64,000 bases of DNA from Pseudoxanthomonas sp. PXM01 (GTDB lineage Bacteria; Pseudomonadota; Gammaproteobacteria; Xanthomonadales; Xanthomonadaceae): contig NZ_JACVAJ010000001.1 in the NCBI RefSeq assembly GCF_014851815.1, positions 930,001 to 994,000 of the forward strand. Direction: 5' to 3'. The position numbers and the translations under genes were made by a program. Below the pieces are notes generated by a model. That model did no database searches. It saw only the letters and a list, made by a program, of their open reading frames with translations, and had not been told where the DNA came from. Below, one piece after another: positions 43,867 to 58,671 of the stretch (position 1 is its first letter; each line of letters starts with the position of its first letter).

Positions 43867-44727
43867 TCAGACCAGCGACGAAGCGATCGGTACGCTGGCC
43901 CGCGGCCGTTGCGCCAGCGTCGCCGCCATGACCCGTGCGGTCTGCCGGTAGGCCTGCGCCACGGCCGAATCCGGCGCCGCGACCACTACCGGCCGGCCAG
44001 CGTCGCCCTGTTCTCGGATCGCGATGTCCAGCGGCAGCGACCCCAGCAGCGGCACGCCGTACTGCGCCGCCATCCGCTCGCCGCCCCCCTGGCCGAACAG
44101 ATGTTCGACATGGCCGCAGCTGGAACAGGTATGGACCGCCATGTTCTCGACGATGCCCAGCACCGGCACCTCGACCTTCTCGAACATCTTCAGCGCCTTC
44201 TTTGCGTCCAGCGTGGCGATGTCCTGCGGCGTGGTGACGATGACCGCGCCCGCCACCGGGATCTTCTGCGCCAGGGTCAGCTGGATGTCGCCGGTGCCGG
44301 GCGGCAGGTCCACCAGCAGGTAGTCCAGGTCACCCCACACGGTGTCGGTGAACAGCTGCATCAGGGCGGACGTGGCCATCGGCCCCCGCCAGATCATCGG
44401 CGTGTCCTGGTCGACCAGCAGTCCGATCGACATGGCCTCCACCCCGAACGCCCGCATCGGCTCGATCGACTTGTTGTCGTGGCTCTCGGGCCGGCCCGAC
44501 AGACCCAGCATGGCCGGCACGCTGGGCCCGTAGACGTCGGCGTCCAGCACCCCCACCCGTGCGCCCTCGGCCGCCAGCGCCAGCGCCAGGTTCACCGACG
44601 TGGTCGACTTCCCCACCCCGCCCTTACCCGAGCCGACCGCGATGACGTTGCGGACGCGGGGGTGGGGGGAAAGCGTGCCCTGGACGGCGTGGGAGGCGAT
44701 GCGCTCCACAAGGGTCAAGTCCACCAT
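43867..44727 (-). CDS. apbC: Iron-sulfur cluster carrier protein ApbC/Mrp
   Basis: P-loop ATPase that binds and hands over [4Fe-4S] clusters. The deviant Walker [11 protein letters not shown] is at residues 32-41, the DVYGPS segment near 75, and the CxxC at Cys201/Cys204 (CSSCGH), the cluster ligands at the dimer interface. I chose ATG/Met at 44727 ([18 protein letters not shown] upstream), giving 286 residues. The open frame extends to 44934, but the extra 69 residues do not resemble the DUF59/MIP18 domain some Mrp proteins carry. Confidence 0.93.
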
Positions 44728-45108
44728 CTGCTCACCCTGCTGGGCGAGGCGATCCCCAACAGCCTCCGTTATGGCCGCTTTGCACCCCCTCACAGGAAAC
44801 CCCGTTGTCACGGATATCGACCACCCGCCGGTGCCTTTCGCTGCCTCCCAATGCGCCCGGCTCCCCCATCCGCTGGGCAATCCAGGGACGTCAATGTGAG
44901 ATAGCGGTTCCAGATTCACGCCCTGCTCCATCAAATTTTGCGACTTTGGTCACATTTTCACCCGTAACCTCAGTAACATTTTCATGTGGTATGGATCGTC
45001 CGTTAATCGCGTGTTAACGTCCGGTTGACAGGACGATTACGTGCGGTTGGGACGAAGGACACGTCCGCTGGGGGCCGCATCACTTCGATAGTTTAGGGGA
45101 TTCACCAC
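44728..45108 (+). promoter_or_regulatory. Divergent intergenic region apbC / TonB receptor 1
   Basis: About 380 bases without a gene I can support. The right half is AT-richer than its surroundings. It contains the 20-base element GTTAATCGCGTGTTAACGTC at 45002-45021, an inverted repeat CGTCC-N8-GGACG at 45018-45035, and a second conserved block ACGTGCGGTTGGG at 45039-45051. The first element and the ACGTGCGG block recur upstream of the second receptor at nearly the same distance from the ATG. The sequence is likely the promoter and leader of the receptor gene; the exact start site is not clear. Confidence 0.6.
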
Positions 45109-47979
45109 ATGTCAGTTCGTTACACGAATGCGCTGAAGCGCAGCCGCCTGAGTGCGGCATTGTTCGCTGCCATCGTCGTACCGGTCGCCGGCGCCGCCAT
45201 GGCCCAGGACGCCGCACCGTCTTCCTCCTCGGGCGAAACCGCCACGCTGGACAAGGTGACGGTCGTCGGCTCGCGCATCAAGCGCACGGAGCTCGAAGGT
45301 CCCGCACCGGTTACCGTCATCTCGCGTGAAGACATCGACCGCGAGGGCTTCCAGACCGTCGGCGACATGCTGCAGAGCCTGACGCAGCAGGCCGTCGGCA
45401 ACTTCACGGGTGACCTGGCCGTCAGCGGCTTCACCCCGAACGCCCAGGTCGTGAACCTGCGCGGCATGGGCCCGGGCTACACCCTGACCCTGATCAACGG
45501 CCGTCGTCCGGCCCAGTACCCGCAGCCGTACAACCGCGACAACAACGTGGTGAACATCAAGGCGATCCCGACCTCGATCGTCGAGCGCATCGAAGTGCTG
45601 AGCGGCGGCGCGTCGGCCATCTACGGCTCCGACGCCGTGGCCGGCGTGGTGAACATCGTCCTGCGCAAGAACTATGAAGGCCAGCAGATCCGCGGCACCG
45701 TCGGCACCACCGAAGACGGCGGCGGCGACAGCGTCAACCTGGAGTACACCGGCGGCACCAGCGGCGACAACTGGAGCGCGGTGTGGGCCTTCCAGTACAG
45801 CGAGAACGAGCCGGTCTTCGGTACGCAGCGCGACTACATGGCCGACCGTCGCAACAATCCCTACGGCCTGGCCGTCAACCCGGGCCTGTCGCTCATCGCG
45901 ATCAGCGGTGTCGGCCTGACCGTACCGGTCAATCACGATGCCGCCTTCGACCAGGCGACCTGTGACCGCTTCGGCTATGCCACCGTCGTCCGCGCCGACC
46001 GCGGCCGCGTCTGCGGATCCTGGACCCAGGACGGCTCGCGCAGCATCTGGAACAAGAACCGCAGCTACAACGGTTACGTCTACACCACGTTCGACGTCTC
46101 CGACAATGTCCAGCTGTTCGGCAGCGCCAATTTCTACACCACGGATGCGATCGCCAGCAGCGGCACCGAGTACTGGAGCACCAGCGGCGACCGTTTCACG
46201 TCCAGCCCGACGGGTGCCGCGACCGGTTACTACTTCGACCGCGGCCTGGGCGACCTGGTCCAGTTGCAGCGCGTCTTCAATCCGTGGGAGCTCGGCGGCA
46301 ACGAGGCCGCCAGCACCGTGTTCGACGAGAAGAGCTACGACGTCTCGTTCGGCGCAAGCGGCAACCTCGGCGAGCGCTTCATCTGGGAAGCCAGCGGTAC
46401 CTATGGCAAGTATGAGTATGTCCAGGACCGCCCGCGCCTGCTGGCCAAGGGCATCCACGACTACTTCCTCGGCCCGCAACAGGGCTTCACCAACTCCACC
46501 GGCACCGCTGCCACCGGCACGTACCCGGTCTACACGCTGAATCTGGACCGTTGGCGCAGCCCGATCACGCCCGAGATCTACCGTTCGTTCTCGACCCGCG
46601 TGAAGAACGTTGCAGAGGCCACCTCGGCCACCGCCAACTTCAACATCAGCGGCGACCTGTTCGAACTGCCGGCGGGCCCACTGGGTTTCGCGGCCGTCCT
46701 GGAAGGCACGCGCCAGACCAGCGACCTGACCAGCGATCCGCGCACCAACCAGCTGCGTCCGCTGGACGATCAGACGATCTACAACCTGACCAGCTCGGGT
46801 GAGACGCACGGCGAACGCGACCGCTACGCCTTCGGTGTCGAGTTCCGCGTGCCGATCTTCAGCCAGCTGACCGCACAGCTTGCCGCGCGCTACGACAAGT
46901 ACGACGACATCACCGCGGTGGATGCCGCGACGACGTACAACCTGGGCCTCGAGTACCGTCCGTTCAGCAACTTCCTGCTGCGCGGCAGCTACGCGACCAG
47001 CTTCCGTGCGCCCGACATGCAGATGGTCTATGCGGAAGGTGCAGCGGCCTACTCGGCCATCTTCGACGAGTACAGCTGCCGCTCGGGCACCGGTCTCGGC
47101 CAGCCCGCCGGTACCCCTCCCCGCACCGTGTCCCAGTGCCCGACCGGCCACATCACGCGCTACACCGGCCAGACGCTCACTGCAGGCAACCCCAACCTGA
47201 AGGAAGAAGAGGGTGAGTCCTTCGGCGTCGGCTTCGTGTGGGACGTCATCGACAACATGTCGGTGTCCGTCGACTACTACAAGATCAAGCTGGAAGACCG
47301 GGCACGCGTGCTTGATGCGGCCTACATCATGCAGAACGAAGCCAATTGCCGCCTGGGCGTGAACCGCGATGGATCGCCGTTCGACTATGCCATCGGCTCC
47401 CCGTTCTGCCAGAACATCCTCGGCCTGATCACCCGTACGTCGGCCCCCGGCACTGCCCTCGACCAGCAGGTCGCTCGCCTGAACACCGCGTACATCAACC
47501 AGGCGTCGCAGGAAGTGAGCGGCATCGACGCCACGTTCAAGTACCGTCTGGACACCGACCGTGCCGGCGATTTCTCGTTCGACCTGGGCTACAGCCTGCG
47601 CCTCACCGACAAGTCGCAGCGTTTCCCGGGCGACGTCGAAGTCGACTACCGCGACATGTGGGACTACGATCCCCGCAGCCGTGTGCGTGGTTCGGTAGGC
47701 TGGGCACGTGACGACTGGTCGGTCACCCTGTTCGGCAGCCGCATGGGTGCGAACATGAACTGGGACGAGACCGCGCGCCTGAAGCCGTACATCCTGTACA
47801 ACCTGCAGGTGGGCAAGAAGTTCACCGACAAGATCAAGGTGGATTTCACCGTGGTCAACCTGACGGACAACCAGTTCCGCGAGGATCCGACCTACACCGC
47901 CTATCCGTACTTCTACAACTACATCGGCGCGGACCCGCTGGGTCGTCGTTACTACGTGAGCGCCACCTACCGCTTCTGA
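45109..47979 (+). CDS. TonB-dependent outer membrane receptor (paralogue 1)
   Basis: A 956-residue receptor. A signal peptide (residues 1-32, ending AMAQ) is followed by a TonB-box-like LDKVTVVGSR at ~47-56, a plug domain to ~190 (the YGSDAVAGVVNIV segment at 172-184) and a 22-strand-type barrel ending in TYRF. No STN domain, so it is not a sigma-regulating transducer. Three cysteine pairs, 285/302, 657/677 and 747/767, lie in predicted extracellular loops and are conserved in the neighbour receptor, pointing to disulfides. The substrate is unknown; peptide-rich context suggests oligopeptides. A strong terminator follows it. Confidence 0.92.
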   Translation: MSVRYTNALKRSRLSAALFAAIVVPVAGAAMAQDAAPSSSSGETATLDKVTVVGSRIKRTELEGPAPVTVISREDIDREGFQTVGDMLQSLTQQAVGNFTGDLAVSGFTPNAQVVNLRGMGPGYTLTLINGRRPAQYPQPYNRDNNVVNIKAIPTSIVERIEVLSGGASAIYGSDAVAGVVNIVLRKNYEGQQIRGTVGTTEDGGGDSVNLEYTGGTSGDNWSAVWAFQYSENEPVFGTQRDYMADRRNNPYGLAVNPGLSLIAISGVGLTVPVNHDAAFDQATCDRFGYATVVRADRGRVCGSWTQDGSRSIWNKNRSYNGYVYTTFDVSDNVQLFGSANFYTTDAIASSGTEYWSTSGDRFTSSPTGAATGYYFDRGLGDLVQLQRVFNPWELGGNEAASTVFDEKSYDVSFGASGNLGERFIWEASGTYGKYEYVQDRPRLLAKGIHDYFLGPQQGFTNSTGTAATGTYPVYTLNLDRWRSPITPEIYRSFSTRVKNVAEATSATANFNISGDLFELPAGPLGFAAVLEGTRQTSDLTSDPRTNQLRPLDDQTIYNLTSSGETHGERDRYAFGVEFRVPIFSQLTAQLAARYDKYDDITAVDAATTYNLGLEYRPFSNFLLRGSYATSFRAPDMQMVYAEGAAAYSAIFDEYSCRSGTGLGQPAGTPPRTVSQCPTGHITRYTGQTLTAGNPNLKEEEGESFGVGFVWDVIDNMSVSVDYYKIKLEDRARVLDAAYIMQNEANCRLGVNRDGSPFDYAIGSPFCQNILGLITRTSAPGTALDQQVARLNTAYINQASQEVSGIDATFKYRLDTDRAGDFSFDLGYSLRLTDKSQRFPGDVEVDYRDMWDYDPRSRVRGSVGWARDDWSVTLFGSRMGANMNWDETARLKPYILYNLQVGKKFTDKIKVDFTVVNLTDNQFREDPTYTAYPYFYNYIGADPLGRRYYVSATYRF

Positions 47980-48005
47980 TAGCGCGCTATCGGCAGCACT
48001 TGGAG

Positions 48006-48033
48006 AGCCCGGCGAAAGCCGGGCTTTTCTTTT
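48006..48033 (+). terminator. Rho-independent terminator after receptor 1
   Basis: Stem AGCCCGGC / GCCGGGCT with a GAAA tetraloop, followed by TTTTCTTTT. It separates receptor 1 from receptor 2, so the two are probably separate transcripts. Confidence 0.88.
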
Positions 48034-48059
48034 GCCTGGACGCCGGATTTAGGCAATAT

Positions 48060-48075
48060 TGTGATGAATATCACT
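48060..48075 (+). promoter_or_regulatory. Candidate Clp/CRP-family operator
   Basis: TGTGA-TGAATA-TCACT matches the CRP/Clp consensus TGTGA-N6-TCACA in nine of ten conserved bases. It lies about 150 bases before the ATG of receptor 2 and about 60 bases before the shared GTTAA element. Clp is the CRP-like global regulator of Xanthomonadaceae and is answerable to cyclic di-GMP. Confidence 0.6.
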
Positions 48076-48122
48076 CTTTGAATCGCAACATGTGTCACGC
48101 CCGGGGATGGCACTTCCCTCCT

Positions 48123-48172
48123 GTTAACCACGTGTTAATGTCGAGTCACGAGGAGCCTGACGTGCGGCTGGG
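48123..48172 (+). promoter_or_regulatory. Shared leader element upstream of receptor 2
   Basis: GTTAACCACGTGTTAATGTC (48123-48142) matches 17 of 20 bases of the element at 45002 upstream of receptor 1, and ACGTGCGGCTGGG (48160-48172) matches 12 of 13 of the block at 45039. The two GTTAA copies are 11 bases apart, one helical turn. Distance to the start codon is 105 bases here and 107 there. Confidence 0.6.
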
Positions 48173-48227
48173 CCAACGGATTGGTCGAGCGTCTGCCGCA
48201 CCACATTGACCGCCAAGGAGCAACCAC

Positions 48228-51062
48228 ATGTCAGTTCGCAAGAAGACCGCGCTACAACGCAGCCGCCTCGCCGCCGCCCTGGTCGCTGCGCTGTTCGTTC
48301 CTGTCATCGGCACGGCCACTGCCCAGGAAGCGCAGGATGAGGACGATGACACCCCGACTTCGCAGACAGCCACGCTCGACAAGGTGACCGTCACCGGCTC
48401 GCGCATCAAGCGCGCGGAAGTCGAGGGTCCTGCGCCCGTCACCGTGATCACGGCCGCCGAGATCGAGCGCGAAGGCTTCGCCACCGTCTATGACGCGCTG
48501 AACTCGCTCACCCAGAACACCGCATCGATCCAGAACGAACTGAACCAGAACGGATTCACTCCCAACGCGAGCTTCCTCAATCTCCGCGGTCTCGGCCCGG
48601 GTTACCAACTCATCCTGATCAACGGCCGCCGCGCAGCCGACTATCCCCTTCCGTACAACTCCCAATCCAATGCGGTGAACCTGGCCAACATCCCGGCCGC
48701 CGCACTGGAACGCGTCGAAGTCCTGACCGGCGGCGCATCGGCGATCTACGGTTCCGACGCTGTGGCCGGCGTCGTCAACCTGATCATGAAGACGAACTAC
48801 GAGGGCGATCAGTTCAGCTTGCGCGCCGGCACGACCACGCAGGGCGGCGGAGATTCGGGGCGCTTCCAATGGATCGGCGGCAAGACCGGCGACAACTGGA
48901 GCGTCATCTACGCATTCGAAGCCGTCGAGCGCGAGGCGATCTTCGCATCGCAGCGCAAGTTCATGGACTCCTACTTCGACGAGCCCGGCGTGAATCCGGA
49001 TGACGTCAATGCGGTCGAAGGCCTGCTTGTATTCGACATCGCCAACAGCAACCGTGTCTTCCCGGACGGAGGCGAAGCAACCTGCGCCCGGTTCAGCGAG
49101 TTCCAAGCGTATTATTTCGAAACCTCATCGGTGTACACCGGGCCGCGCTGCGGCTACTTCGGCTACCCCGCAACCCAAGCGATCCGGAACTCCGACAGCA
49201 ACCAGTCCGGCTATCTGTACGGTACTTTCGACTTCGACGGCGGATTGCAGGGCTGGGCGCAGCTGAGCGCGTCACGCTCAAAGGCCACCTTCGCAAGTGC
49301 CACACAGTTCTGGTCCAGCTCCGATTTCTTCGACCCGAACCTGGAGTCGGATTTCACCGGTCCCGGCGGCGGTGCCTTCGTCAATCTGCAGCGCATCTTC
49401 ACGCCTGCTGAAGTCGGCGGCGCAGGCGCGCAGAACGCGACATCCGACGAGCGCGCCTTCGACGTCGCGTTCGGACTGCGCGGCACCATGCTCTCGGATC
49501 GCTTCGACTGGGATGCGACGGTGTCCCGCGCGGAGTACAAAATCGAATCGCGGCGCCCGCGCTTTCTGGCCAACAGGCTCACCGAGTATTTCCTGGGCGA
49601 GCAGCAGGGCTTCGACCCGTACTTCGATGCCTACCCGGTATACGAGCTGAATCAGGCACGCTTCTTCAACCCGATCGATGCCGCGACGTTCCAGTCGTTG
49701 AACACCACGCTGATCGGCAAGGCCGAATCCGACGTTACCCAGGCGAACTTCACCGTTTCAGGCGACCTGTTCGAACTGCCAGCGGGTGCATTCGGCGCCG
49801 CAGCCGTCATCGAAGCGGCCCGCCAGAGCTATGAACTGACGCCCGATCCGCGCACGTTGCCTGGCTACACCGGCAACGAACCCATCTACAACTATTCCGA
49901 TACGGGCGGCGGTGGCGAGCGTGACCGTTACGCGCTGGGCCTGGAGTTCAGCATTCCGATTCTCGACAGCCTGAAGGCGAGCGTGGCCGGCCGCTACGAC
50001 AAGTACGACGACGTCACCAACGTGGATGATGCGGTCACCTGGCAGGTCGGCCTCGAATGGCGGCCTGTCGAAAGCCTGCTGTTCCGTGGCAGCCATGGCA
50101 CGAGCTTCCGCGCCCCCGACATGCACTATGTGTATGCGGGCGAGTCGGGCTTCTTCACTTCGATCGTCGACGAGTACCGCTGCCGGCGCGATGGCTTGAA
50201 TCCGCAGGGCACCGCCTGCTCGAGCGACGCCGACTACAACTACCAGGTGCAGGGCATCCGTCGCGGCAGCACCGATCTGGAGGAAGAGGAAGGCAAGTCC
50301 ACCACGTTCGGCGTGGTTTGGGACATCACCGACCAGATGTCGATCAGCGCGGACTGGTACGACATCGAACTCACCGGCGGTGTGGATGACATCTTCACGT
50401 CCTACCTGTTCCGCGAAGAGGCGTCCTGCCTGCTGGGCACCGACCGCGCCGGCAACAGCGTCGATCAGAACTCCGCAGCCTGCCAGTTCTTCACAGGGCT
50501 GGTGACCCGTACCGATTCGCCTTTCCGCGACAACCAAGTGGACGAGTACAGGTCCTTCCCGGTCAACCAGTCGCTTAGCCGTACCAGCGGCATCGACGTG
50601 AACTTCAAGTACGGGCTCGATACGGACCGTCTGGGCGATTTCGATTTCGACCTCGCCTGGACTCACGTCCTCAAGAAGGAAATCGAGCTGTTCCCCGGCG
50701 ACGGCATCATCGATGACCGTGACGATCTGGTGAACCAGCGCACCTTGAACTTCCGTAGCCGTTTCAACTGGAGCGCTAGCTGGCAGTTGGACGACTGGGC
50801 CGCCAACGTCAATGGCTACCGTCTGGGCTCCCTGCCCCTCGGCGATCCCGACAAGGGCCGCGGCGGCAGCTTCGTGATCTGGAATGCCGGTGTGTCGAAG
50901 GAGATCACGGAGAAGGCGACGGTGTCGTTCCAGGTCCAGAACCTGCTCGACAAGAAGCCGTTGTTCGATGAGGACCTGGCGTATCCCTTCTTCTGGAGCA
51001 CGTACTACTCCGGCGTCATCGGCCGCGAGGTCTTCCTCCAGTTCAGCTACAAGCTGCGCTGA
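48228..51062 (+). CDS. TonB-dependent outer membrane receptor (paralogue 2)
   Basis: A 944-residue paralogue of the preceding receptor, beginning with the same 11 bases of coding sequence (ATGTCAGTTCG). It has a signal peptide (residues 1-34), a TonB-box-like LDKVTVTGSR near 48-57, a plug with the YGSDAVAGVVNLI segment and a barrel. It shares the Cys pairs 286/308, 652/664 and 734/752 in matching loops. It ends FSYKLR rather than the terminal Phe most outer membrane barrels have. The N-terminal half is more alike between the two than the surface loops, as expected for duplicates with different ligands. Confidence 0.92.
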   Translation: MSVRKKTALQRSRLAAALVAALFVPVIGTATAQEAQDEDDDTPTSQTATLDKVTVTGSRIKRAEVEGPAPVTVITAAEIEREGFATVYDALNSLTQNTASIQNELNQNGFTPNASFLNLRGLGPGYQLILINGRRAADYPLPYNSQSNAVNLANIPAAALERVEVLTGGASAIYGSDAVAGVVNLIMKTNYEGDQFSLRAGTTTQGGGDSGRFQWIGGKTGDNWSVIYAFEAVEREAIFASQRKFMDSYFDEPGVNPDDVNAVEGLLVFDIANSNRVFPDGGEATCARFSEFQAYYFETSSVYTGPRCGYFGYPATQAIRNSDSNQSGYLYGTFDFDGGLQGWAQLSASRSKATFASATQFWSSSDFFDPNLESDFTGPGGGAFVNLQRIFTPAEVGGAGAQNATSDERAFDVAFGLRGTMLSDRFDWDATVSRAEYKIESRRPRFLANRLTEYFLGEQQGFDPYFDAYPVYELNQARFFNPIDAATFQSLNTTLIGKAESDVTQANFTVSGDLFELPAGAFGAAAVIEAARQSYELTPDPRTLPGYTGNEPIYNYSDTGGGGERDRYALGLEFSIPILDSLKASVAGRYDKYDDVTNVDDAVTWQVGLEWRPVESLLFRGSHGTSFRAPDMHYVYAGESGFFTSIVDEYRCRRDGLNPQGTACSSDADYNYQVQGIRRGSTDLEEEEGKSTTFGVVWDITDQMSISADWYDIELTGGVDDIFTSYLFREEASCLLGTDRAGNSVDQNSAACQFFTGLVTRTDSPFRDNQVDEYRSFPVNQSLSRTSGIDVNFKYGLDTDRLGDFDFDLAWTHVLKKEIELFPGDGIIDDRDDLVNQRTLNFRSRFNWSASWQLDDWAANVNGYRLGSLPLGDPDKGRGGSFVIWNAGVSKEITEKATVSFQVQNLLDKKPLFDEDLAYPFFWSTYYSGVIGREVFLQFSYKLR

Positions 51063-51085
51063 GGCCTGTTCCACGATGCGATGCG

Positions 51086-51115
51086 AAGGAGCCCGGGAAA
51101 CCGGGCTCCTTTTTT
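51086..51115 (+). terminator. Rho-independent terminator after receptor 2
   Basis: An 11-bp perfect stem AAGGAGCCCGG / CCGGGCTCCTT with a GAAA tetraloop, whose last pairs run into six T residues. It lies four bases before the stop of the convergent sulfotransferase gene. Confidence 0.92.
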
Positions 51116-51118
51116 GTA

Positions 51119-52729
51119 TCAGGCCCCTTGCGGTACGCTCACGCCTTCGGCATGGAGCAACGCAAGCAGAGGCTGAAGTTCCCGGCGGTAGCGGTGCCAC
51201 CGGCCCTGTGCGTCACCGTGCAACTTGCCCCGGACCTGCGCCGCGCTGGCAGTCGCGACCGGCGCGTCGTTGAGTTCGAACCGAAGGCATTGCGGCTGCC
51301 AATCGAGTCCGCAGAAGTCGAGGAGTCGGCGGGTCTGGCGCTCCTGATCCGCTATGAGGTCTTCGTAGTCGATCCAGAGGATGCGTTCGCCGAGAAGGCG
51401 CTCGAAATGCCGCATCAGTCGGTCGAATCGCACAAAGTACCGCCCCGTCTCCAGAAGATCGAACGAGTATCCGTGGTACGGCGACGCCGGAGAGAAGAGC
51501 TGGCGGAAGTTGGACAGGCAGGTGTCCATCGGATTGCGTCGCACCCCGATGATCCGCGCATCCGGAAGCGCGCGCGCGATCATCTCCAGATAGAGGAAGT
51601 TGTGCGGGTGCTTGTCGACGAACCGGGGGAAACTGCCGGTCAACGGCCTTGTACTGCCGATGTAGTCCGCACCAAGGGCCTCCCAGTCGATGGCCTTCGC
51701 TGCCATGACGGTATCCGCGTCGATCAGGCGTCGCGTCCGCGTGCCCCCCGCGCGCTTGACCAGCGACGGGAAGTTGAGCACCTCGCCGATGGACTGGACG
51801 GACGCATGACTCGAGAGGATGCGATCGACCAGCGTCGTGCCGGAGCGGGGCATGCCGATGACGAAGATGGGCTCACCGCTCTGATGTCCGGTCGTCCCAT
51901 CCACGCGACCGGACTCGACCTCAAGGGCATCGAAGCAGGCGTGGTCGACGTTCGTCCCGAAGCGCACGAGCGCCTTACCCTCCCGTTTTCCCGCACTGAA
52001 ATGATGGAAGGCGCCCGGGTGATTGCCGACATCCTCGTATTCCTTTCCCAGTGCCAGATGCATGTACATTCTGTCTGCAGGATCACGGATCCGGTCGAGA
52101 CTCGATGTAAGGCGATCGATATGGTTCACCTCCGCCGTCCACTTCCTCAGTTGCGCAAGGCCAAGATGTGCCTGCGCGTGAGTGGGTTCGCGGGCGATGA
52201 CCTGCAGGTAGGCTGCCTCGGCCGCATCCAAGTCGCCGTTGAACAACGACGTGGTCGCGTGGTTGAAGACGTTGCGCGTGTCTGCCGGCAAGAGCTCGAG
52301 TGCCCTGCCACTCAGGCGGCTCGCGGATTCGTAGGCATTGGCCCTGGCGAAGATCGCCGAGAGCTGCTGACAGATCGCACCATTGTTCCATGCCAGGGGC
52401 ACGGCTTCATGCGCAAGTATCAGTGCCTGCTGGGGAGAGTGGGCCTGCGAGATGACACGTGCAGCCTGGAGGATGAAGTCGACGTCACCCGGTTTGAGGT
52501 CCATGGCAGCCTGCGAATGGGCAAGCGCCTCGTCCAGAGCGCCGGTCGCCAAGGCGGCAACGGAGAGCAGGTGATGGACATGCGGCAGCGAGGGATTCGC
52601 AGCTACCAGCGCCCTCAGGACGGGTAACGCGCGCTGCCAGTCCCCCCTGTTCGATGCCTCGATCGCGACGAGGTACTGGCGGGCAGCCCACGTTCTTGCC
52701 GCTCCGGCCGAGTCGGTGGTTTCGGACAT
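51119..52729 (-). CDS. Tetratricopeptide-repeat sulfotransferase
   Basis: A 536-residue protein with an N-terminal TPR array (residues ~20-230) fused to a PAPS-dependent sulfotransferase domain. The 5'-phosphosulfate loop GMPRSGTT is at 292-299, and the 3'-phosphate motif with RRNPMDTCLSN near 395-405; both look intact. No signal peptide, so it acts in the cytoplasm. Start ATG at 52729 is my choice; an ATG at 52747 is in frame. It opposes the receptors and the S9 peptidase gene. Substrate is unknown: candidates are a peptide, protein tyrosine or small molecule. Confidence 0.85.
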   Translation of the reverse strand: MSETTDSAGAARTWAARQYLVAIEASNRGDWQRALPVLRALVAANPSLPHVHHLLSVAALATGALDEALAHSQAAMDLKPGDVDFILQAARVISQAHSPQQALILAHEAVPLAWNNGAICQQLSAIFARANAYESASRLSGRALELLPADTRNVFNHATTSLFNGDLDAAEAAYLQVIAREPTHAQAHLGLAQLRKWTAEVNHIDRLTSSLDRIRDPADRMYMHLALGKEYEDVGNHPGAFHHFSAGKREGKALVRFGTNVDHACFDALEVESGRVDGTTGHQSGEPIFVIGMPRSGTTLVDRILSSHASVQSIGEVLNFPSLVKRAGGTRTRRLIDADTVMAAKAIDWEALGADYIGSTRPLTGSFPRFVDKHPHNFLYLEMIARALPDARIIGVRRNPMDTCLSNFRQLFSPASPYHGYSFDLLETGRYFVRFDRLMRHFERLLGERILWIDYEDLIADQERQTRRLLDFCGLDWQPQCLRFELNDAPVATASAAQVRGKLHGDAQGRWHRYRRELQPLLALLHAEGVSVPQGA

Positions 52730-52865
52730 GGGATAGGCGGCCAACATCCAAGGACGTGTAAGTCGTCATCTTACAGTTCCCGCATACCGCGTGGCGCCGC
52801 TGATACGCCATCAGCGCCCGGCACCCGGCATGTGCGGATGAGCTGTCAAGGCCCTAAATTTTCCT

Positions 52866-52902
52866 GTTAAAGTCGGTATCCAGTCACGCCCCACGGGGCG
52901 TG
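52866..52902 (+). promoter_or_regulatory. Leader element and hairpin upstream of the S9 peptidase gene
   Basis: GTTAAAGTCG at 52866-52875 with AGTCACG at 52882-52888 echoes GTTAATGTCGAGTCACG before receptor 2. It is followed by a perfect inverted repeat CACGCCC-CACG-GGGCGTG (52885-52902), a 7-bp stem with four-base loop, in the presumed 5' leader of the gene about 70 bases before the ATG. Confidence 0.45.
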
Positions 52903-52970
52903 CCGCGACGGTCGGAAATCACTGTCGCCGGGCAATTTCATTCGGGGCGATTCCTAAATTCGGGGGACTA

Positions 52971-54974
52971 ATGAAGAATTCCTTACTTGCGACATCGATG
53001 CTTGCGGTGGCGAGCGTGCTGGCAGTGCCTGGGCATGCGGCACCGTCCCCTCAGCCAATCGTCGATTTCGTAAGCCATGCGGCCTACAGTACGGTCAAGA
53101 TCTCGCCGAATGGCGAGTACTTGGCGATGACCGTGGACAAGGGTGAGCAGGATGTGCTCGCGGTGCTCCGCACCAGCGACCTTTCACTCGTCAAAGTGAA
53201 CCAGCTTCCAGACCAGAAGAGCGTGGGCAGCTTCTACTGGGTCAGTCCCACCCGGCTGATGTTCAACTCGGTCAAGAAACTTGGCGGCTACGCCCAGCCG
53301 TTCAACACTGGTGAGTGGTTTGCGGTCAACGCCGACGGCAGCCAGGCGCGCCCGCTCATCTTCTACGGCACCCGCGACGCGACGCAGCGCGGCAAGACCG
53401 TCAGCACCGAAAGATTCTCGCTGCTCGATACACTGAAGGACGACGACCAGTACGTCATCATGTCCGCCATCACGCCACGCTCCTCCGAAGGCGTCGGAAC
53501 CGAAGTGTTCCGCATGGACACGCTCAGCGGACGTCGCGTCTCCATGGGCCGTGCTCCCAAGGAGAACTGCGGCATCGTGCTGGATGCGGCCAAGGAACCC
53601 CGGTTCGCGGTGTGTTCGTCCAGCCGCGACGAAGAGGGCGAGTACGACGAACGCACGGAATTGTACCGTCGTGACGGAAAGAGCTGGACGCTGGTCAATG
53701 CATCCAAGTCGGAGGGCAAGCACCTGTATGTCGTTCGGACATCGTCCAACGGCACCGTCTACGCCGAACAGGACGACGGCAAGGCACCCGCAGCCATTGG
53801 CACTTTGAATACCTCCTCCGGTGAGTTCACCCCCTTGTTCCAGGACAAGGTGGCCGAGGTCTCTGACTACATCTGGTCGACCGACGATGCCTCGCTGATC
53901 GGCGTGGTTACCGAGGCGGGGGCGCCCGCGGTGAAGCTCATCGACGAGAACCATCCGGATGCAGAAATCTACGGCTCCCTAGCGGGTGCCTTCGAGGGTC
54001 AGATGGTCGATCTGGCCAGCCACACACAGGATGGCAAGAAGATCATCGTCAGCGTCTATAGCGACAACAATCCGGGCGAGCTCTATCTTTATGATCGAGT
54101 CACCGGTAAGGCACGCTTCCTGATGCAGCGCAAGCCGCAACTGGACAAGAAAAAGATGGCCTCGGTGAAGCCCTTCAGCTTCACCTCGCAGGACGGCAAG
54201 CAGATCCACGGCTACCTCACGCTTCCGCAGGGCTCTACGGGCAAGAACTTGCCGCTGATCGTCAATCCGCATGGCGGCCCGATCGGTCCCCGCGACAACT
54301 GGGGCTTCAATTGGGAAACCCAACTGCTCGCCAGCCGCGGCTACGCGGTGCTCCAGGTCAATTACCGCGGTTCCGGCGGCTACGGCAAGGCTTTCCAGGA
54401 CGCCGGACACCAGCAGTGGGGTCAGGGCATCCAGAACGACATCATCGACGCGACGAAGTGGGCCATCAGCCATGGGTACGCCGACAAGGATCGCATCTGC
54501 ATCTATGGTGGCAGCTTCGGTGGGTACTCCTCGCTGATGGCGCCCATCCGCGCACCCGGACTGTTCAAGTGCACGTTCGGCTATGTCGGCGTCTACGACG
54601 TCGACATGATGTTCAAGAAGGGCGATATCCCGGAACGTGAATCCGGACAGCGCTACCTGCGCCGCACGCACGGGACGGACACGAAGTCCTGGGCCGAGAA
54701 CTCGCCCGCGCGCCGCGCTGCCGAAGTGAAGATTCCGGTCTATCTGGCTGCTGGTGCCCGTGACGTGCGCACGCCCCCGGAGCAGACGGAGTTGATGAAC
54801 AAGGCGCTGATCGCTGCAGGCAATCCGCCCGAGGGCATGATCATCCAGTCGGGTGAGATGCACGGCTTCTACGACGTCGAGAACCGGGTGAAGCTCTACA
54901 CCACCATGCTGGGCTTCTTCGCCCGCCATATCGGCGGACATGTCGAAGTGGGTGCGCCCGCGAAGGCCGATTGA
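52971..54974 (+). CDS. Secreted S9-family prolyl-oligopeptidase-like peptidase
   Basis: A 667-residue exported serine peptidase. A signal peptide (residues 1-23, GHAA) precedes a beta-propeller-like region (~30-390) and a C-terminal alpha/beta hydrolase domain. The triad is Ser515 (GGSFGGY), Asp598 (GARDVRTPP) and His631 (GEMHGFY), all intact. The oxyanion region is NPHGGPIG near 424. The gene has a GGGGGA ribosome-binding site. Periplasmic or surface location and the adjacent receptors suggest it trims imported peptides. A strong terminator follows. Confidence 0.92.
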   Translation: MKNSLLATSMLAVASVLAVPGHAAPSPQPIVDFVSHAAYSTVKISPNGEYLAMTVDKGEQDVLAVLRTSDLSLVKVNQLPDQKSVGSFYWVSPTRLMFNSVKKLGGYAQPFNTGEWFAVNADGSQARPLIFYGTRDATQRGKTVSTERFSLLDTLKDDDQYVIMSAITPRSSEGVGTEVFRMDTLSGRRVSMGRAPKENCGIVLDAAKEPRFAVCSSSRDEEGEYDERTELYRRDGKSWTLVNASKSEGKHLYVVRTSSNGTVYAEQDDGKAPAAIGTLNTSSGEFTPLFQDKVAEVSDYIWSTDDASLIGVVTEAGAPAVKLIDENHPDAEIYGSLAGAFEGQMVDLASHTQDGKKIIVSVYSDNNPGELYLYDRVTGKARFLMQRKPQLDKKKMASVKPFSFTSQDGKQIHGYLTLPQGSTGKNLPLIVNPHGGPIGPRDNWGFNWETQLLASRGYAVLQVNYRGSGGYGKAFQDAGHQQWGQGIQNDIIDATKWAISHGYADKDRICIYGGSFGGYSSLMAPIRAPGLFKCTFGYVGVYDVDMMFKKGDIPERESGQRYLRRTHGTDTKSWAENSPARRAAEVKIPVYLAAGARDVRTPPEQTELMNKALIAAGNPPEGMIIQSGEMHGFYDVENRVKLYTTMLGFFARHIGGHVEVGAPAKAD

Positions 54975-54993
54975 TCCACCCGCACACGGAAAT

Positions 54994-55019
54994 GGCCGGC
55001 TTCGGCCGGCCTTTTCTTT
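54994..55019 (+). terminator. Rho-independent terminator after the S9 peptidase gene
   Basis: Stem GGCCGGC / GCCGGCC with a stable TTCG tetraloop, followed by TTTTCTTT, twenty bases after the stop codon. Confidence 0.9.
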
Positions 55020-55126
55020 GGTACAACCGGGTCACGACACTCCCGCATGACTTCCGGTAGGTGCCATTTGCACCGCAAGGCCGCAGCATGGACGCGTCAC
55101 AACGAGCAGGAAGTCAAAGGAAGATG

Positions 55127-55939
55127 ATGAAGATCAAGTCTCGGCACTTCGTTCTTGCCGCCGCATTGCTGGCACCCTGCCTGGCATCTACCCAGGCATT
55201 CGGCGCCCCCCCACCGGACCCCACCGAAGATCGCCTGATGATGTCGGCAGGCTTCCTGACGTCGCATCCCGACCTTCGCTATCGCCTGCTCGGCCTCGAG
55301 GAGTTCAAAGCCACCCGCCATGAAGACGCGCTCCGCTTCTTCCAGCGCGCGTCCTACTACGGCGACAAGCCGTCCCAGGGCATGGTCGCCGAGATGTACT
55401 GGAGCGGCCAGGGCACTGCCAAGGACCCCGTGCTCGGCTACATCTGGATGGACCTGGCAGCCGAGCGCGGCTACGAAGGATTCCTGCTGCTCCGGGAACG
55501 CTACTGGCGACAACTGACGGAAGAGCAGCGCTCGCGTGCGCTCGAAGAAGGGCAGAACATCTACGCCAAGTACGGTGACGCGGCAGCGCAACCGCGCCTT
55601 GCCGGGGTGTTGCGGCGCGAGCGCCGCAACGTGACCGGCAGTCGCACCGGGTTCGCGGGCAACGTGAAGATCTACGTTCCAGGGCCTGGCGGATTCGAGC
55701 AGATCGATGGCACCAAGTTCTACGACGAGCGCTTCTGGGATCCCAAGCTGTACCAGGCGTGGCATGACAGCGTCTGGATGAAGCCTCGCGTAGGCCGCGT
55801 CAGCGTCGGCGAAGTCGAGCAGATCCAGCGGGACTCGCCCGGCTCCCGCATCCCCGCTACGGCACCCCGCGTCGATGCGGAGGAACCGCAGACGCCGGAA
55901 CGCGACGAGTCCGACCTCGGAACGCAGAAGGACGGCTGA
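55127..55939 (+). CDS. Exported Sel1-like repeat protein of unknown function
   Basis: A 270-residue exported protein. A signal peptide (residues ~1-25, AFGA) is followed by two Sel1/TPR-like helical repeats (ALRFFQRASYYGDKPSQGM, then YWSGQGTAKDPVLGYIWMDLA), about 60 residues of linker, and a Trp/Tyr-rich segment (FYDERFWDPKLYQAWHDSVW near 212-231). The tail is acidic. I chose ATG 55127 because AGGA lies five bases before it; ATG 55124 is adjacent. Function is unknown. It stands alone between the S9 terminator and the DUF2147 gene. Confidence 0.7.
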   Translation: MKIKSRHFVLAAALLAPCLASTQAFGAPPPDPTEDRLMMSAGFLTSHPDLRYRLLGLEEFKATRHEDALRFFQRASYYGDKPSQGMVAEMYWSGQGTAKDPVLGYIWMDLAAERGYEGFLLLRERYWRQLTEEQRSRALEEGQNIYAKYGDAAAQPRLAGVLRRERRNVTGSRTGFAGNVKIYVPGPGGFEQIDGTKFYDERFWDPKLYQAWHDSVWMKPRVGRVSVGEVEQIQRDSPGSRIPATAPRVDAEEPQTPERDESDLGTQKDG

Positions 55940-56042
55940 ACCACGCCCCCGCGACCCTTCCATACGCCAGCGGATGCGGTATAACAGCGTCATCCCGCCG
56001 GTCCTCGCCGGCGGGGCTGACCTACATCCCTGGGAGGGGAAC

Positions 56043-56483
56043 ATGCGCAAGACCCTGATGGCCGCGATGCTGGCCGCTCCGCTGATGGCCCTGTCGATGG
56101 TGGCATCTGCCGCCGATCCGGTGGTCGGTCGCTGGAAGACCATCGACAACGACACCGGCAAGCCGAAGTCGTTCGTCGAGATCACCCAGGCGGCCAACGG
56201 CACCATCACCGGCCGCATCGTCGAGCTGATCAACCCGAGCAAGCCGAACCCGACCTGCGACAAGTGCAAGGATGATCGCAGGAACAAGCCGATCACCGGC
56301 ATGGAGATCATCCGCGGCATGAAGGCCGAGGGCGGTGGCCAGTACGCCGGCGGCACCATCCTCAAGCCCGACGAGGGCAAGGTGTACAAGTCGAAGATGG
56401 AACTGCTCGAGGGCGGCAAGAAGCTGGAGGTGTCCGGCTGCATCGCCTTCATGTGCAAGTCGCAGACCTGGCTCCGCCAGTAA
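56043..56483 (+). CDS. DUF2147 family exported protein
   Basis: A 146-residue exported protein. A signal peptide (residues 1-23, ASAA) leads into DPVVGRWKTIDNDTGKPKSFVEI, the lipocalin-like opening of the DUF2147 family. Cys72 and Cys75 (TCDKCKDD) and two later Cys (GCIAFMCKSQTWLR) are a family pattern and may form disulfides. A strong GGGAGGGG ribosome-binding site precedes the ATG. Family function is unknown. A hairpin with little T-run follows. Confidence 0.85.
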   Translation: MRKTLMAAMLAAPLMALSMVASAADPVVGRWKTIDNDTGKPKSFVEITQAANGTITGRIVELINPSKPNPTCDKCKDDRRNKPITGMEIIRGMKAEGGGQYAGGTILKPDEGKVYKSKMELLEGGKKLEVSGCIAFMCKSQTWLRQ

Positions 56484-56510
56484 TTCCTGCGCAAGCCGCC
56501 ACGCCACACC

Positions 56511-56535
56511 ACGGGCCCGGCATCGCCGGGCCCGT
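56511..56535 (+). terminator. GC-rich hairpin between the DUF2147 gene and metG
   Basis: Arms ACGGGCCCGGC and GCCGGGCCCGT form an 11-bp perfect stem with a three-base loop. The following bases CGCGTTCTGG give no T-run, so termination is weak or Rho-assisted. Confidence 0.4.
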
Positions 56536-56572
56536 CGCGTTCTGGCCGCAGGAAAAGGCATTCACCCCGCCG

Positions 56573-56581
56573 TGCGATAAT
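56573..56581 (+). promoter_or_regulatory. Extended -10 promoter of metG
   Basis: TGCGATAAT is an extended -10 (TG-N-GATAAT) about 27 bases before the metG ATG. No -35 is obvious. The expected leader is about 20 nt. Confidence 0.5.
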
Positions 56582-56607
56582 CGCCGCCCCCCGTCTCGAA
56601 GCCCGTC

Positions 56608-58671
56608 ATGAGCCGTACTGCCCTCGTCACCAATGCCCTGCCCTACGCCAACGGTCCGCTGCACCTGGGCCACCTGGTGGGCTACATCCAGGGAGACATC
56701 TGGGTGCGGGCACGACGGATGCACGGCGACACGGTGCACTTCGTCTGCGCCGACGACACCCATGGCACGCCGATCATGCTGGCGGCGGAGAAGGCCGGCG
56801 TCACGCCGGAAGCCTTCATCGCCGGCATCCAGGCCAGCCACGAGCGCGACTTCGCCGCGTTCGGCGTGGCTTTCGACCACTACGACTCGACCAACTCCGC
56901 CGCCAACCGCGCGCTGACCGAGCAGTTCTACCAGCGCCTGGATGCGGGTGGACACATCAGTCGACGCACCGTCGCGCAGTTCTACGACCCGGCCAAGGGC
57001 ATGTTCCTGCCCGACCGTTACATCAAGGGCATTTGTCCCAACTGCGGCTCCGCAGACCAGTACGGCGACAACTGCGAGGTCTGCGGCGCGACGTACGCAC
57101 CGACGGACCTGAAAGAGCCCAAATCGATCCTGTCCGGCAGCACGCCAGAGATCCGCGATTCGGAACACTACTTCTTCGAAGTCGGCCGCTTCGATGCCTT
57201 CCTGCGCGAATGGCTGGCCGGCGATGTCGCGCTGCCCGGCGTCAAGGCGAAGCTGCGCGAATGGCTGGATGCCGAGGGCGGCCTGCGCGCGTGGGACATC
57301 TCGCGCGATGCGCCGTACTTCGGTTTCGAGATTCCCGGTGCGCCCGGCAAGTACTTCTATGTCTGGCTGGATGCACCGATCGGCTACCTGAGCAGCTTCC
57401 GCAACCTGTGCGCCGAGCGCGGCCTCGAGTTCGCCCCGCACCTGGAAGCCGGCACCGACGTCGAACTGCACCACTTCATCGGCAAGGACATCGTCAACTT
57501 CCATGGCCTGTTCTGGCCGGCGGTGCTGCATGGCACCGGCCATCGCGCCCCCACGCGCTTGCACGTCAACGGCTACCTGACCGTCAATGGCGCCAAGATG
57601 TCGAAAGGCCGTGGCACTTTCATCATGGCGCGCACTTACCTTGATGTGGGTCTGGAGCCTGAGGCACTGCGCTACTACTTCGCGGCCAAGGGCAATGGCC
57701 AAGTTGAAGACCTCGACCTGAACCTCAGCGACTTCATCGCCCGTGTCAACGCGGATCTGGTGGGCAAGTTCGTCAACCTCGCCAGCCGCTGCGCCGGGTT
57801 CATCGACAAGCGCTTCGGTGGTCGTCTCGCCGACACGCTGCCGGATGCGGCCATGTACCAGCGTTTCGTCGACGCACTTACGCCGATCGCCGCCGCCTAC
57901 GAGCGCAATGAACCGGCCACGGCCCTGCGCCTGACGATGGCACTGGCCGACGAAGCCAACAAGTACGTCGACGAGACCAAGCCGTGGGTGATCGCCAAGC
58001 AGGAAGGCGCGGACGCCGAACTGCAGGCTGTCTGCTCGCAAGGACTGAATCTGTTCCGTGTGCTTGCCGCGGCGCTGAAGCCGGTGCTGCCGCGCACGAC
58101 CGCGGAGGCCGAGGCGTTCCTCGGTGCGCCGGTCGAGACCTGGGCCGACGTTGCGGCGCCACTGCAGGCGCACGTCATCCAGCCGTATTCCCCGCTCTTC
58201 ACCCGTATCGACCCGAAACTGATCGACGCCATGACCGACGCTTCCAAAGACACCCTCGCCGCCGTGCCCGCGCCTGCCGCCCCCGAGAAGAGGACGGAAG
58301 CCAAGTCCTCCGCACCCGCGGAATCGAAGGACGCGACGGGCATCATCGGCATCGAGGATTTCGCCAGACTCGACCTGCGCGTCGGCAAGGTGCTGGAATG
58401 CGGATTCGTGGACGGCTCCGACAAGCTGCTGCGCTTCCTGCTGGATGCCGGTGATCTGGGCCAGCGGCAGATCTTCTCCGGCATCCGCGCCAGTTACGGC
58501 GAGCCGGACAAGCTGATCGGCCGCAACGTGGTGTTCATCGCCAACCTCGCCCCCCGCAAGATGCGCTTCGGTCTGAGCGAAGGCATGATCCTGTCGGCCG
58601 GTTTCGATGGCGGCGCGCTGGCGCTGCTGGACGCGGATGCCGGCGCCCTGCCCGGCATGCCGGTGCGCTGA
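56608..58671 (+). CDS. metG: Methionyl-tRNA synthetase
   Basis: Class I aminoacyl-tRNA synthetase of 687 residues. The HIGH motif is HLGH at 19-22, the zinc knuckle has Cys143, Cys146, Cys156 and Cys159, and the KMSK motif is at 330-333. The anticodon-binding helical domain follows. A Pro/Ala/Glu linker leads to a C-terminal EMAPII/Trbp111-like tRNA-binding domain (near 585-680) that makes the enzyme dimeric, as in E. coli. The start ATG at 56608 follows a short leader. Confidence 0.97.

Follow-up and report, generated by a model that had tools for sequence, protein, structure and literature searches.

Lasso-peptide isopeptidase loci of the AtxE2 type carry an S9-fold peptidase beside a TonB receptor. 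The animal protein-tyrosine sulfotransferases TPST1 and TPST2 are Golgi enzymes not known to carry tetratricopeptide repeats (TPR), and OGT and SPINDLY, an O-GlcNAc and an O-fucose transferase, join a TPR array to a protein-modifying domain. As far as the available parts of two articles on Xanthomonas go, the sux locus groups one member of a large receptor family with an enzyme for its substrate (PMC1790865), and exchange by recombination in flanking genes has been proposed for the RaxX–RaxST cluster, which encodes a bacterial tyrosylprotein sulfotransferase (PMC6637879). Here we report a block of six genes between mrp and metG in a 64,000-nucleotide stretch (the window; G000:C4:930001-994000) of the 4.18-Mb, 12-contig genome of Pseudoxanthomonas sp. 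PXM01 (Xanthomonadaceae). By Pfam and NCBIfam models the order is mrp (−), two TonB-dependent receptors (+), a TPR-sulfotransferase (−), an S9 peptidase (+), a Sel1-like protein (+), a DUF2147 protein (+) and metG (+). We consider it reasonably probable that the mrp–metG interval is an old site of the family at which TonB receptor genes are exchanged together with optional partners, and that it holds a peptide-uptake version in this species.

The locus resembles each of these systems in part. Its S9-fold peptidase adjoins a TonB receptor as in the AtxE2-type loci, but scores under the cut-off of that family, and no lasso maturation protease exceeds its cut-off in the genome. The catalytic domain of its sulfotransferase aligns with that of TPST1 and TPST2, including the loop that binds 3′-phosphoadenosine 5′-phosphosulfate (PAPS) and a glutamate of the GEE motif; the similarity is weak, and unlike them it is fused to TPR. 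OGT and SPINDLY share this architecture but have a different chemistry, and match through the TPR part. As in sux, a member of a large receptor family is grouped with a putative enzyme for its substrate; sux concerns sucrose and amylosucrase, and the available parts of the text name no sulfotransferase, peptidase or metG (PMC1790865). Exchange through recombination in the flanks is proposed for RaxX–RaxST as for the window, but RaxST has a 60-residue peptide precursor as its substrate, and neither TPR nor tetratricopeptide occurs in the parts of that article available (PMC6637879). The open-licence PMC literature, in the portions covered, contained no description of the receptor–sulfotransferase pairing or of a receptor site between mrp and metG (including PMC10932419, PMC1790865, PMC6637879, PMC4110880, PMC10040529 and PMC11732741).

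The mrp–metG interval in relatives

In 149 family genomes and 38 genus genomes we searched for metG and the sulfotransferase, and took 87 metG neighbourhoods (a family sample of 60 and 27 further ones from the genus), which made 88 with the window. With stretches reaching some 14 kb upstream of metG, wider intervals are censored, and 14 of the 60 family stretches had been chosen for a sulfotransferase near metG. Upstream of metG, mrp lay within the stretch at 65 of the 88 loci (10 of the 14 chosen ones among them) and not within it at 23. The interval of these 65 held a receptor at 50 loci, an S9 peptidase at 18, a sulfotransferase at 15, all three at five and none of them at 15. Among the genus loci, which were not selected for content, a receptor lay between mrp and metG in 27 of 32; since receptor plug-domain matches number just 50 in the 4.18-Mb genome of the window, the make-up of the block is not due to chance.

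Gene sets differed among the closest relatives. G172 carried the whole block minus receptor 1, with identities of 92% (receptor 2), 64% (sulfotransferase) and 91% (S9 peptidase), and was the only one of the genus loci fetched with a nearly complete block. Six others (G155, G158, G159, G160, G174 and G176) had one or more receptors with S9 and SEL1 genes and no sulfotransferase in the interval; together with G172 they are the seven close relatives that share a receptor plus S9–SEL1 at this site with the window. A different sulfotransferase–receptor–S9 set was present in G162, G163 and G164, and a single receptor of another clade in G117, the sulfotransferase of which was located beyond rnfB. 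Given these differing sets, the block is not common to all relatives, nor is it a one-off insertion. The sequence-only reading had expected the interval to vary among relatives, which it does; its idea of one acquired insertion was not supported, as the same site holds receptors across the family.

DUF2147 adjoins metG across the family. Of the 23 metG loci whose stretch lacks mrp, 22 still had it upstream of metG, with a receptor intervening in L031 and L034. The DUF2147 gene that the sequence-only reading had counted into the block is present, but as a resident of the metG side. At the other border, a receptor and a sulfotransferase adjoined mrp, with metG outside the stretch, in L063, L064, L065, L068 and L070 (selected for the sulfotransferase) and in L108. 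A sulfotransferase beyond rnfB, on the opposite side of metG from the receptor, was also seen in L003, L015, L018, L019, L020, L138, L141, L143, L145, L147 and L148.

The whole block might instead be a genomic island recently acquired for one substrate, which we regard as very improbable. At 11,674 bp, its mrp–metG gap exceeds all others measured at the 65 loci (any wider gaps beyond the roughly 14-kb stretches going uncounted), and its G + C content is 63.2% against 66.8% for the window, as an island would have it. Codon scores of the block, a check proposed for the insertion idea, were however ordinary, within about one standard deviation (z −0.95 to +1.06); the block showed neither a tRNA nor inverted repeats, and its six proteins included no integrase or transposase by Pfam and NCBIfam. 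Synteny points the same way, with receptor, S9 and SEL1 genes at the same place in the seven close relatives and receptors at the site across the family (50 of 65 loci, 27 of 32 in the genus). The foreign island was rejected on codon use, the absent tRNA and inverted repeats, and synteny, and with it the single acquired unit that had been suggested from the sequence.

In L012 and L014, genes for a sulfotransferase, an S9 peptidase, a receptor and a SEL1-like protein precede metG, and the stretch contains no mrp; the interval of these two loci may exceed that of the window.

Receptor bodies under a conserved leader

We compared DNA identity pairwise among eight loci (28 pairs); the mrp column was out of register for L124 and L129 (0.42–0.47) and was left unused. 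The position is shared, the content is variable, and in some species pairs the receptor bodies are sharply divergent under a conserved leader. Three species pairs, each including G117, combined a conserved leader and DUF2147–metG region with a divergent receptor body. Between L127 and L003, identity was 0.85 in the leader, 0.71 in the first 75 bases of the receptor and then 0.54, 0.44 and 0.38, with 0.92 in DUF2147 and 0.90 in metG. The values for L125 and L003 were 0.82 in the leader, 0.51, 0.49 and 0.41 in the receptor after the first 75 bases, 0.93 in DUF2147 and 0.90 in metG, and those for L135 and L003 were 0.83 in the leader and 0.55, 0.46 and 0.41 in the receptor after the first 75 bases. 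Judging from these identities, receptor bodies were most likely replaced through homologous recombination in the conserved flanks, mrp with the leader on one side and DUF2147–metG on the other.

Genes and upstream elements of the block

The features of the block, in coordinates of the window, are as follows.

43867..44934, − strand: mrp/apbC iron-sulfur carrier, left border (NF008669, 400 bits against a cut-off of 348); open reading frame (ORF) taken from the first TTG, true start probably nearer 44728
45002..45021, + strand: GTTAA-N6-GTTAANGTC element before receptor 1; relatives have similar leaders
45109..47979, + strand: TonB-dependent receptor 1, 956 aa, clade T1 (Plug and beta-barrel Pfam domains)
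48002..48029, + strand: terminator-like hairpin 3′ of receptor 1
48123..48142, + strand: second GTTAA-N6-GTTAANGTC element, before receptor 2
48228..51062, + strand: TonB-dependent receptor 2, 944 aa, clade T2 (Plug and beta-barrel Pfam domains)
51085..51112, no strand assigned: terminator-like hairpin where the genes for receptor 2 and the sulfotransferase converge
51119..52747, − strand: TPR-sulfotransferase, 542 aa (TPR about 28–200, Sulfotransfer_3 293–485)
52865..52874, + strand: third TGTTAANGTC copy, 106 bp 5′ of the S9 gene
52971..54974, + strand: secreted S9 serine peptidase (PF00326), presumed nucleophile Ser515 in GGSFGGY
55124..55939, + strand: secreted Sel1-like protein, weak match; stays with S9 in relatives
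56043..56483, + strand: DUF2147 secreted protein, metG-side resident (PF09917, 106 bits)
56608..58671, + strand: metG, right border (NF001100, 885 bits)

Gene order and domains confirmed the list of six block genes given by the sequence-only reading; the Sel1-like protein is present, but its Sel1 match lies under the Pfam cut-off (25.8 against 30.7 bits). Judged by eye, the Sel1-like gene probably starts at about 55124 and the DUF2147 gene at about 56043. Receptors 1 and 2 are paralogous (43% identity across 980 aligned columns), and their Plug and barrel scores of 79.7/108 and 85.7/100 bits (cut-offs 23.9/27) identify them as TonB-dependent receptors. Of the seven direct-repeat families in the block, six link the two receptors to each other, and the seventh, of 23 nt, likewise lies between them. 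No consensus sigma-70 promoter was found in the region.

In the window, both receptors and the S9 gene are preceded by a common motif at almost equal distances. This motif, TGTTAANGTC, chosen by eye from the three upstream (intergenic) regions, lies at −97 of receptor 1 (core at 45012), −95 of receptor 2 (core at 48133) and −106 of the S9 gene. The window has three copies against 0.04 expected, and the genome four, three of them in the block. As a reversed control pattern also occurs four times, the genome count alone is not rare, and the unusual part is the clustering. Within −350 to +120 of ORF starts, the motif stood at 22 of 114 receptors and at one of 24 S9 genes, and at none of 1,192 unclassified, 88 metG and 104 sulfotransferase genes. 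With up to one mismatch it preceded 47 of 74 receptors in mrp-holding loci (part of them outside the interval) against 8 of 39 in loci without mrp (two of the eight, L008 and L139, being metG loci), and in G172 a copy with one mismatch lies about 104 bp 5′ of the S9 gene. Receptors 1 and 2 are also preceded by a GTTAA-N6-GTTAA repeat, which is reminiscent of an OmpR/PhoP-type box.

The genes could also be neighbours with no relation to one another, retained in a permissive intergenic spot, an account that we judge unlikely. Terminator-like hairpins after receptor 1, between receptor 2 and the sulfotransferase gene, and after the S9 gene would suit it (the region has nine, against 7.1 in shuffles), as would the freely varying content of the interval; the shared upstream motif and the receptor–sulfotransferase adjacency at many other loci, given below, argue the other way.

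The fourth genome copy of TGTTAANGTC, at L156:1501 (G000:C5:1009733), lies 210 bp 5′ of a gene for a secreted M28 peptidase. This gene was rejected as a member of a peptide regulon and its motif taken as chance, since none of 11 orthologues had the motif within one mismatch. A different element, TGTTAACGACACTTTAATTT, was seen upstream of four receptors (L099, L111, L114 and L120), at −51 or −52 in three and at −96 in one.

The S9 peptidase and its likely substrate

The peptidase belongs to the S9 superfamily, with a PF00326 score of 167.4 bits and a GxSxGG nucleophile motif at Ser515, and a signal peptide is visible by eye. Among solved chains, those of aminoacyl and prolyl peptidases are closest to it. 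It scored 99.1 bits with the Dpp5 model NF053518, for which the cut-off is 900. A receptor is followed by an S9 gene in several relatives, and we agree with the sequence-only reading that, from family knowledge, the pair of receptor and peptidase fits a peptide-like substrate.

That reading had also compared the block with lasso-peptide isopeptidase loci. A locus for uptake and degradation of a lasso peptide or another ribosomally synthesized and post-translationally modified peptide, in which the receptors import, the S9 peptidase opens and the sulfotransferase modifies the peptide, seems to us highly unlikely. A weak match of the peptidase to the AtxE2-type model NF033523 is in its favour, as is a table on another group in which, in the part available, adjacent cluster numbers cover sulfotransferases, an aspartyl hydroxylase and a lasso B2 protein (PMC10040529). 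The match of 65.3 bits is far under the cut-off of 400, however, and no lasso maturation (B2) protease exceeded its cut-off in the genome (PF13471, best 23.2 against 26). The largest listed gap between block genes, 248 bp, also speaks against it, in an ORF list with a floor of 100 residues and with no search made for a short precursor. The lasso likeness thus did not survive, and this type of locus was rejected on the model scores and the lack of a maturation protease over the cut-off.

Proposed working of the site

Under the reading that we prefer, an exchange site with optional partners, receptors 1 and 2 and the S9 peptidase would be expressed together, the receptors would import a peptide or peptide-like ligand, and the periplasmic peptidase would, as its family suggests, cleave the imported ligand. 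The cytoplasmic TPR-sulfotransferase may serve particular receptor clades as an accessory, with the receptor itself, or a molecule that the receptor handles, as its target. A fixed spot with receptor turnover under a conserved leader would show how nutrient uptake can be retooled without regulatory rewiring.

Several points weigh against this reading. No recombination junction was mapped, and differential duplication and loss would also yield variable content. The clearest mosaic pairs all have L003 as one member. Leaders share 0.68–0.92 identity among six of the eight loci, but those of L124 and L129 only 0.52–0.60 with these six, which argues against a single resident leader. The motif was picked post hoc, 17 of 20,000 simulated triples had a pattern of this kind in common at similar offsets, and the reversed pattern is equally frequent in the genome (4 against 4). 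The only S9 gene of the 24 with the exact motif is that of the window, the copy in G172 having its one mismatch. Three S9 homologues (64–66%) lie elsewhere in other genomes of the genus with no receptor like receptor 1 or 2 in 9-kb stretches, and the substrate assignment draws on family knowledge alone.

The TPR-sulfotransferase

No signal peptide was seen by eye in the sulfotransferase. Its TPR repeats resemble those of designed TPR proteins and of OGT, and the nearest solved relatives of its catalytic part are TPST1 (E 1.1e-5) and TPST2 (E about 1e-5). The alignment spans about 204 residues with the PAPS loop and places Glu322 opposite the second Glu of the TPST GEE motif; the likeness is weak, as 2z6v, a mycobacterial-type sulfotransferase chain, scores 1.3e-5 over a part. 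Residues R301, E322, K379, R404 and S501, among which we presume the catalytic Glu and PAPS-loop roles to be distributed, are kept in 97–98% of 102 paralogues (E322 in 98%). With its catalytic domain similarity, Glu and PAPS-binding loop, the enzyme is, by alignment, a predicted TPST-type sulfotransferase. The genome encodes an adenosine 5′-phosphosulfate (APS) kinase.

The structure model of the enzyme, from four sequences only, had a mean predicted local distance difference test (pLDDT) score of 71 and was weaker in the catalytic half. Foldseek with this model found the TPR part to resemble OGT and SPINDLY; no sulfotransferase was in the best 50 matches listed, so that the search is uninformative on the catalytic domain.

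The sulfotransferase of the window (51119-52747) and that of L125 (8488-10086) come from two species and are only 64% identical, though the flanking receptor 2 and S9 are 91–92% identical; the TPR half of the pair has 59% and the catalytic half 69% identity.

Pairing of sulfotransferases and receptors

We took 40 paralogue loci, spread by hand over the listed matches with the best class left aside and no account taken of the adjoining genes; the sample is therefore non-random. Tandem sulfotransferases were skipped in counting adjacency, and Oar-like and iron-type receptors were counted through clustering of 31 large neighbours, identified from an overall Pfam tally and their sequences. The next gene was a receptor at 28 of the 40 loci (13 of the class in the window, nine Oar-like and six iron-type), against roughly 3% expected from the 50 plug-domain matches and an assumed gene number. 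Four further loci (L099, L111, L117 and L120) had a receptor one gene away. Outside the family, a scan of 87 of the 109 ORFs in the short flanks showed a receptor at only 6 of 28 loci, so the sulfotransferase family as a whole is not receptor-specific.

At the mrp–metG site, a clade T3 receptor and a sulfotransferase of the class in the window occurred together at 17 loci, each without the other at four and four, and neither at 39 (Fisher 1.8e-8, uncorrected for kinship or chosen loci); the genus alone, not selected for content, gave 9, 2, 2 and 18. A T2 receptor was present at each of the four loci, that of the window among them, with a sulfotransferase but no T3. Within clade T3, tyrosine Y442 was present in 27 of 27 linked against one of five unlinked receptors, the latter five sequences only. 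No tyrosine cleanly separated the four linked from the nine unlinked receptors of clade T2, and receptors 1 and 2 have W near the place of Y442 (by eye). Receptor and sulfotransferase distances, given metG, correlated at 0.52 over 17 loci (0 of 2000 shuffles), at 0.74 over the eight loci where the genes are adjacent (4 of 2000) and at 0.28 over the nine where they are separated (366 of 2000). The correlation may simply reflect joint inheritance of neighbours.

A further account would make these enzymes cytosolic, TPR-linked, tyrosine-type sulfotransferases dedicated, within this family, to outer-membrane TonB receptors: the TPR would recognise the nascent receptor or a protein ligand, sulfation before export would set ligand specificity, and bacterial surface receptors would routinely be sulfated. 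We think this improbable. The TPST likeness with the aligned and conserved Glu322, the resemblance of the TPR part to OGT and SPINDLY, the receptor as next gene in 28 of 40 loci, the T3 co-occurrence and the APS kinase are all consistent with it. Against it stand clade T2, in which no tyrosine splits linked from unlinked receptors, the five unlinked sequences behind the candidate Y442, the non-significant distance correlation where the genes lie apart, and the scarcity of receptors beside sulfotransferases outside the family. The receptor–sulfotransferase neighbourhood raises the question of whether bacterial outer-membrane receptors or their ligands are sulfated.

An Oar-like receptor followed by a TPR-sulfotransferase on the same strand was seen in L087, L090, L095, L100, L101, L104, L107, L110 and L118.

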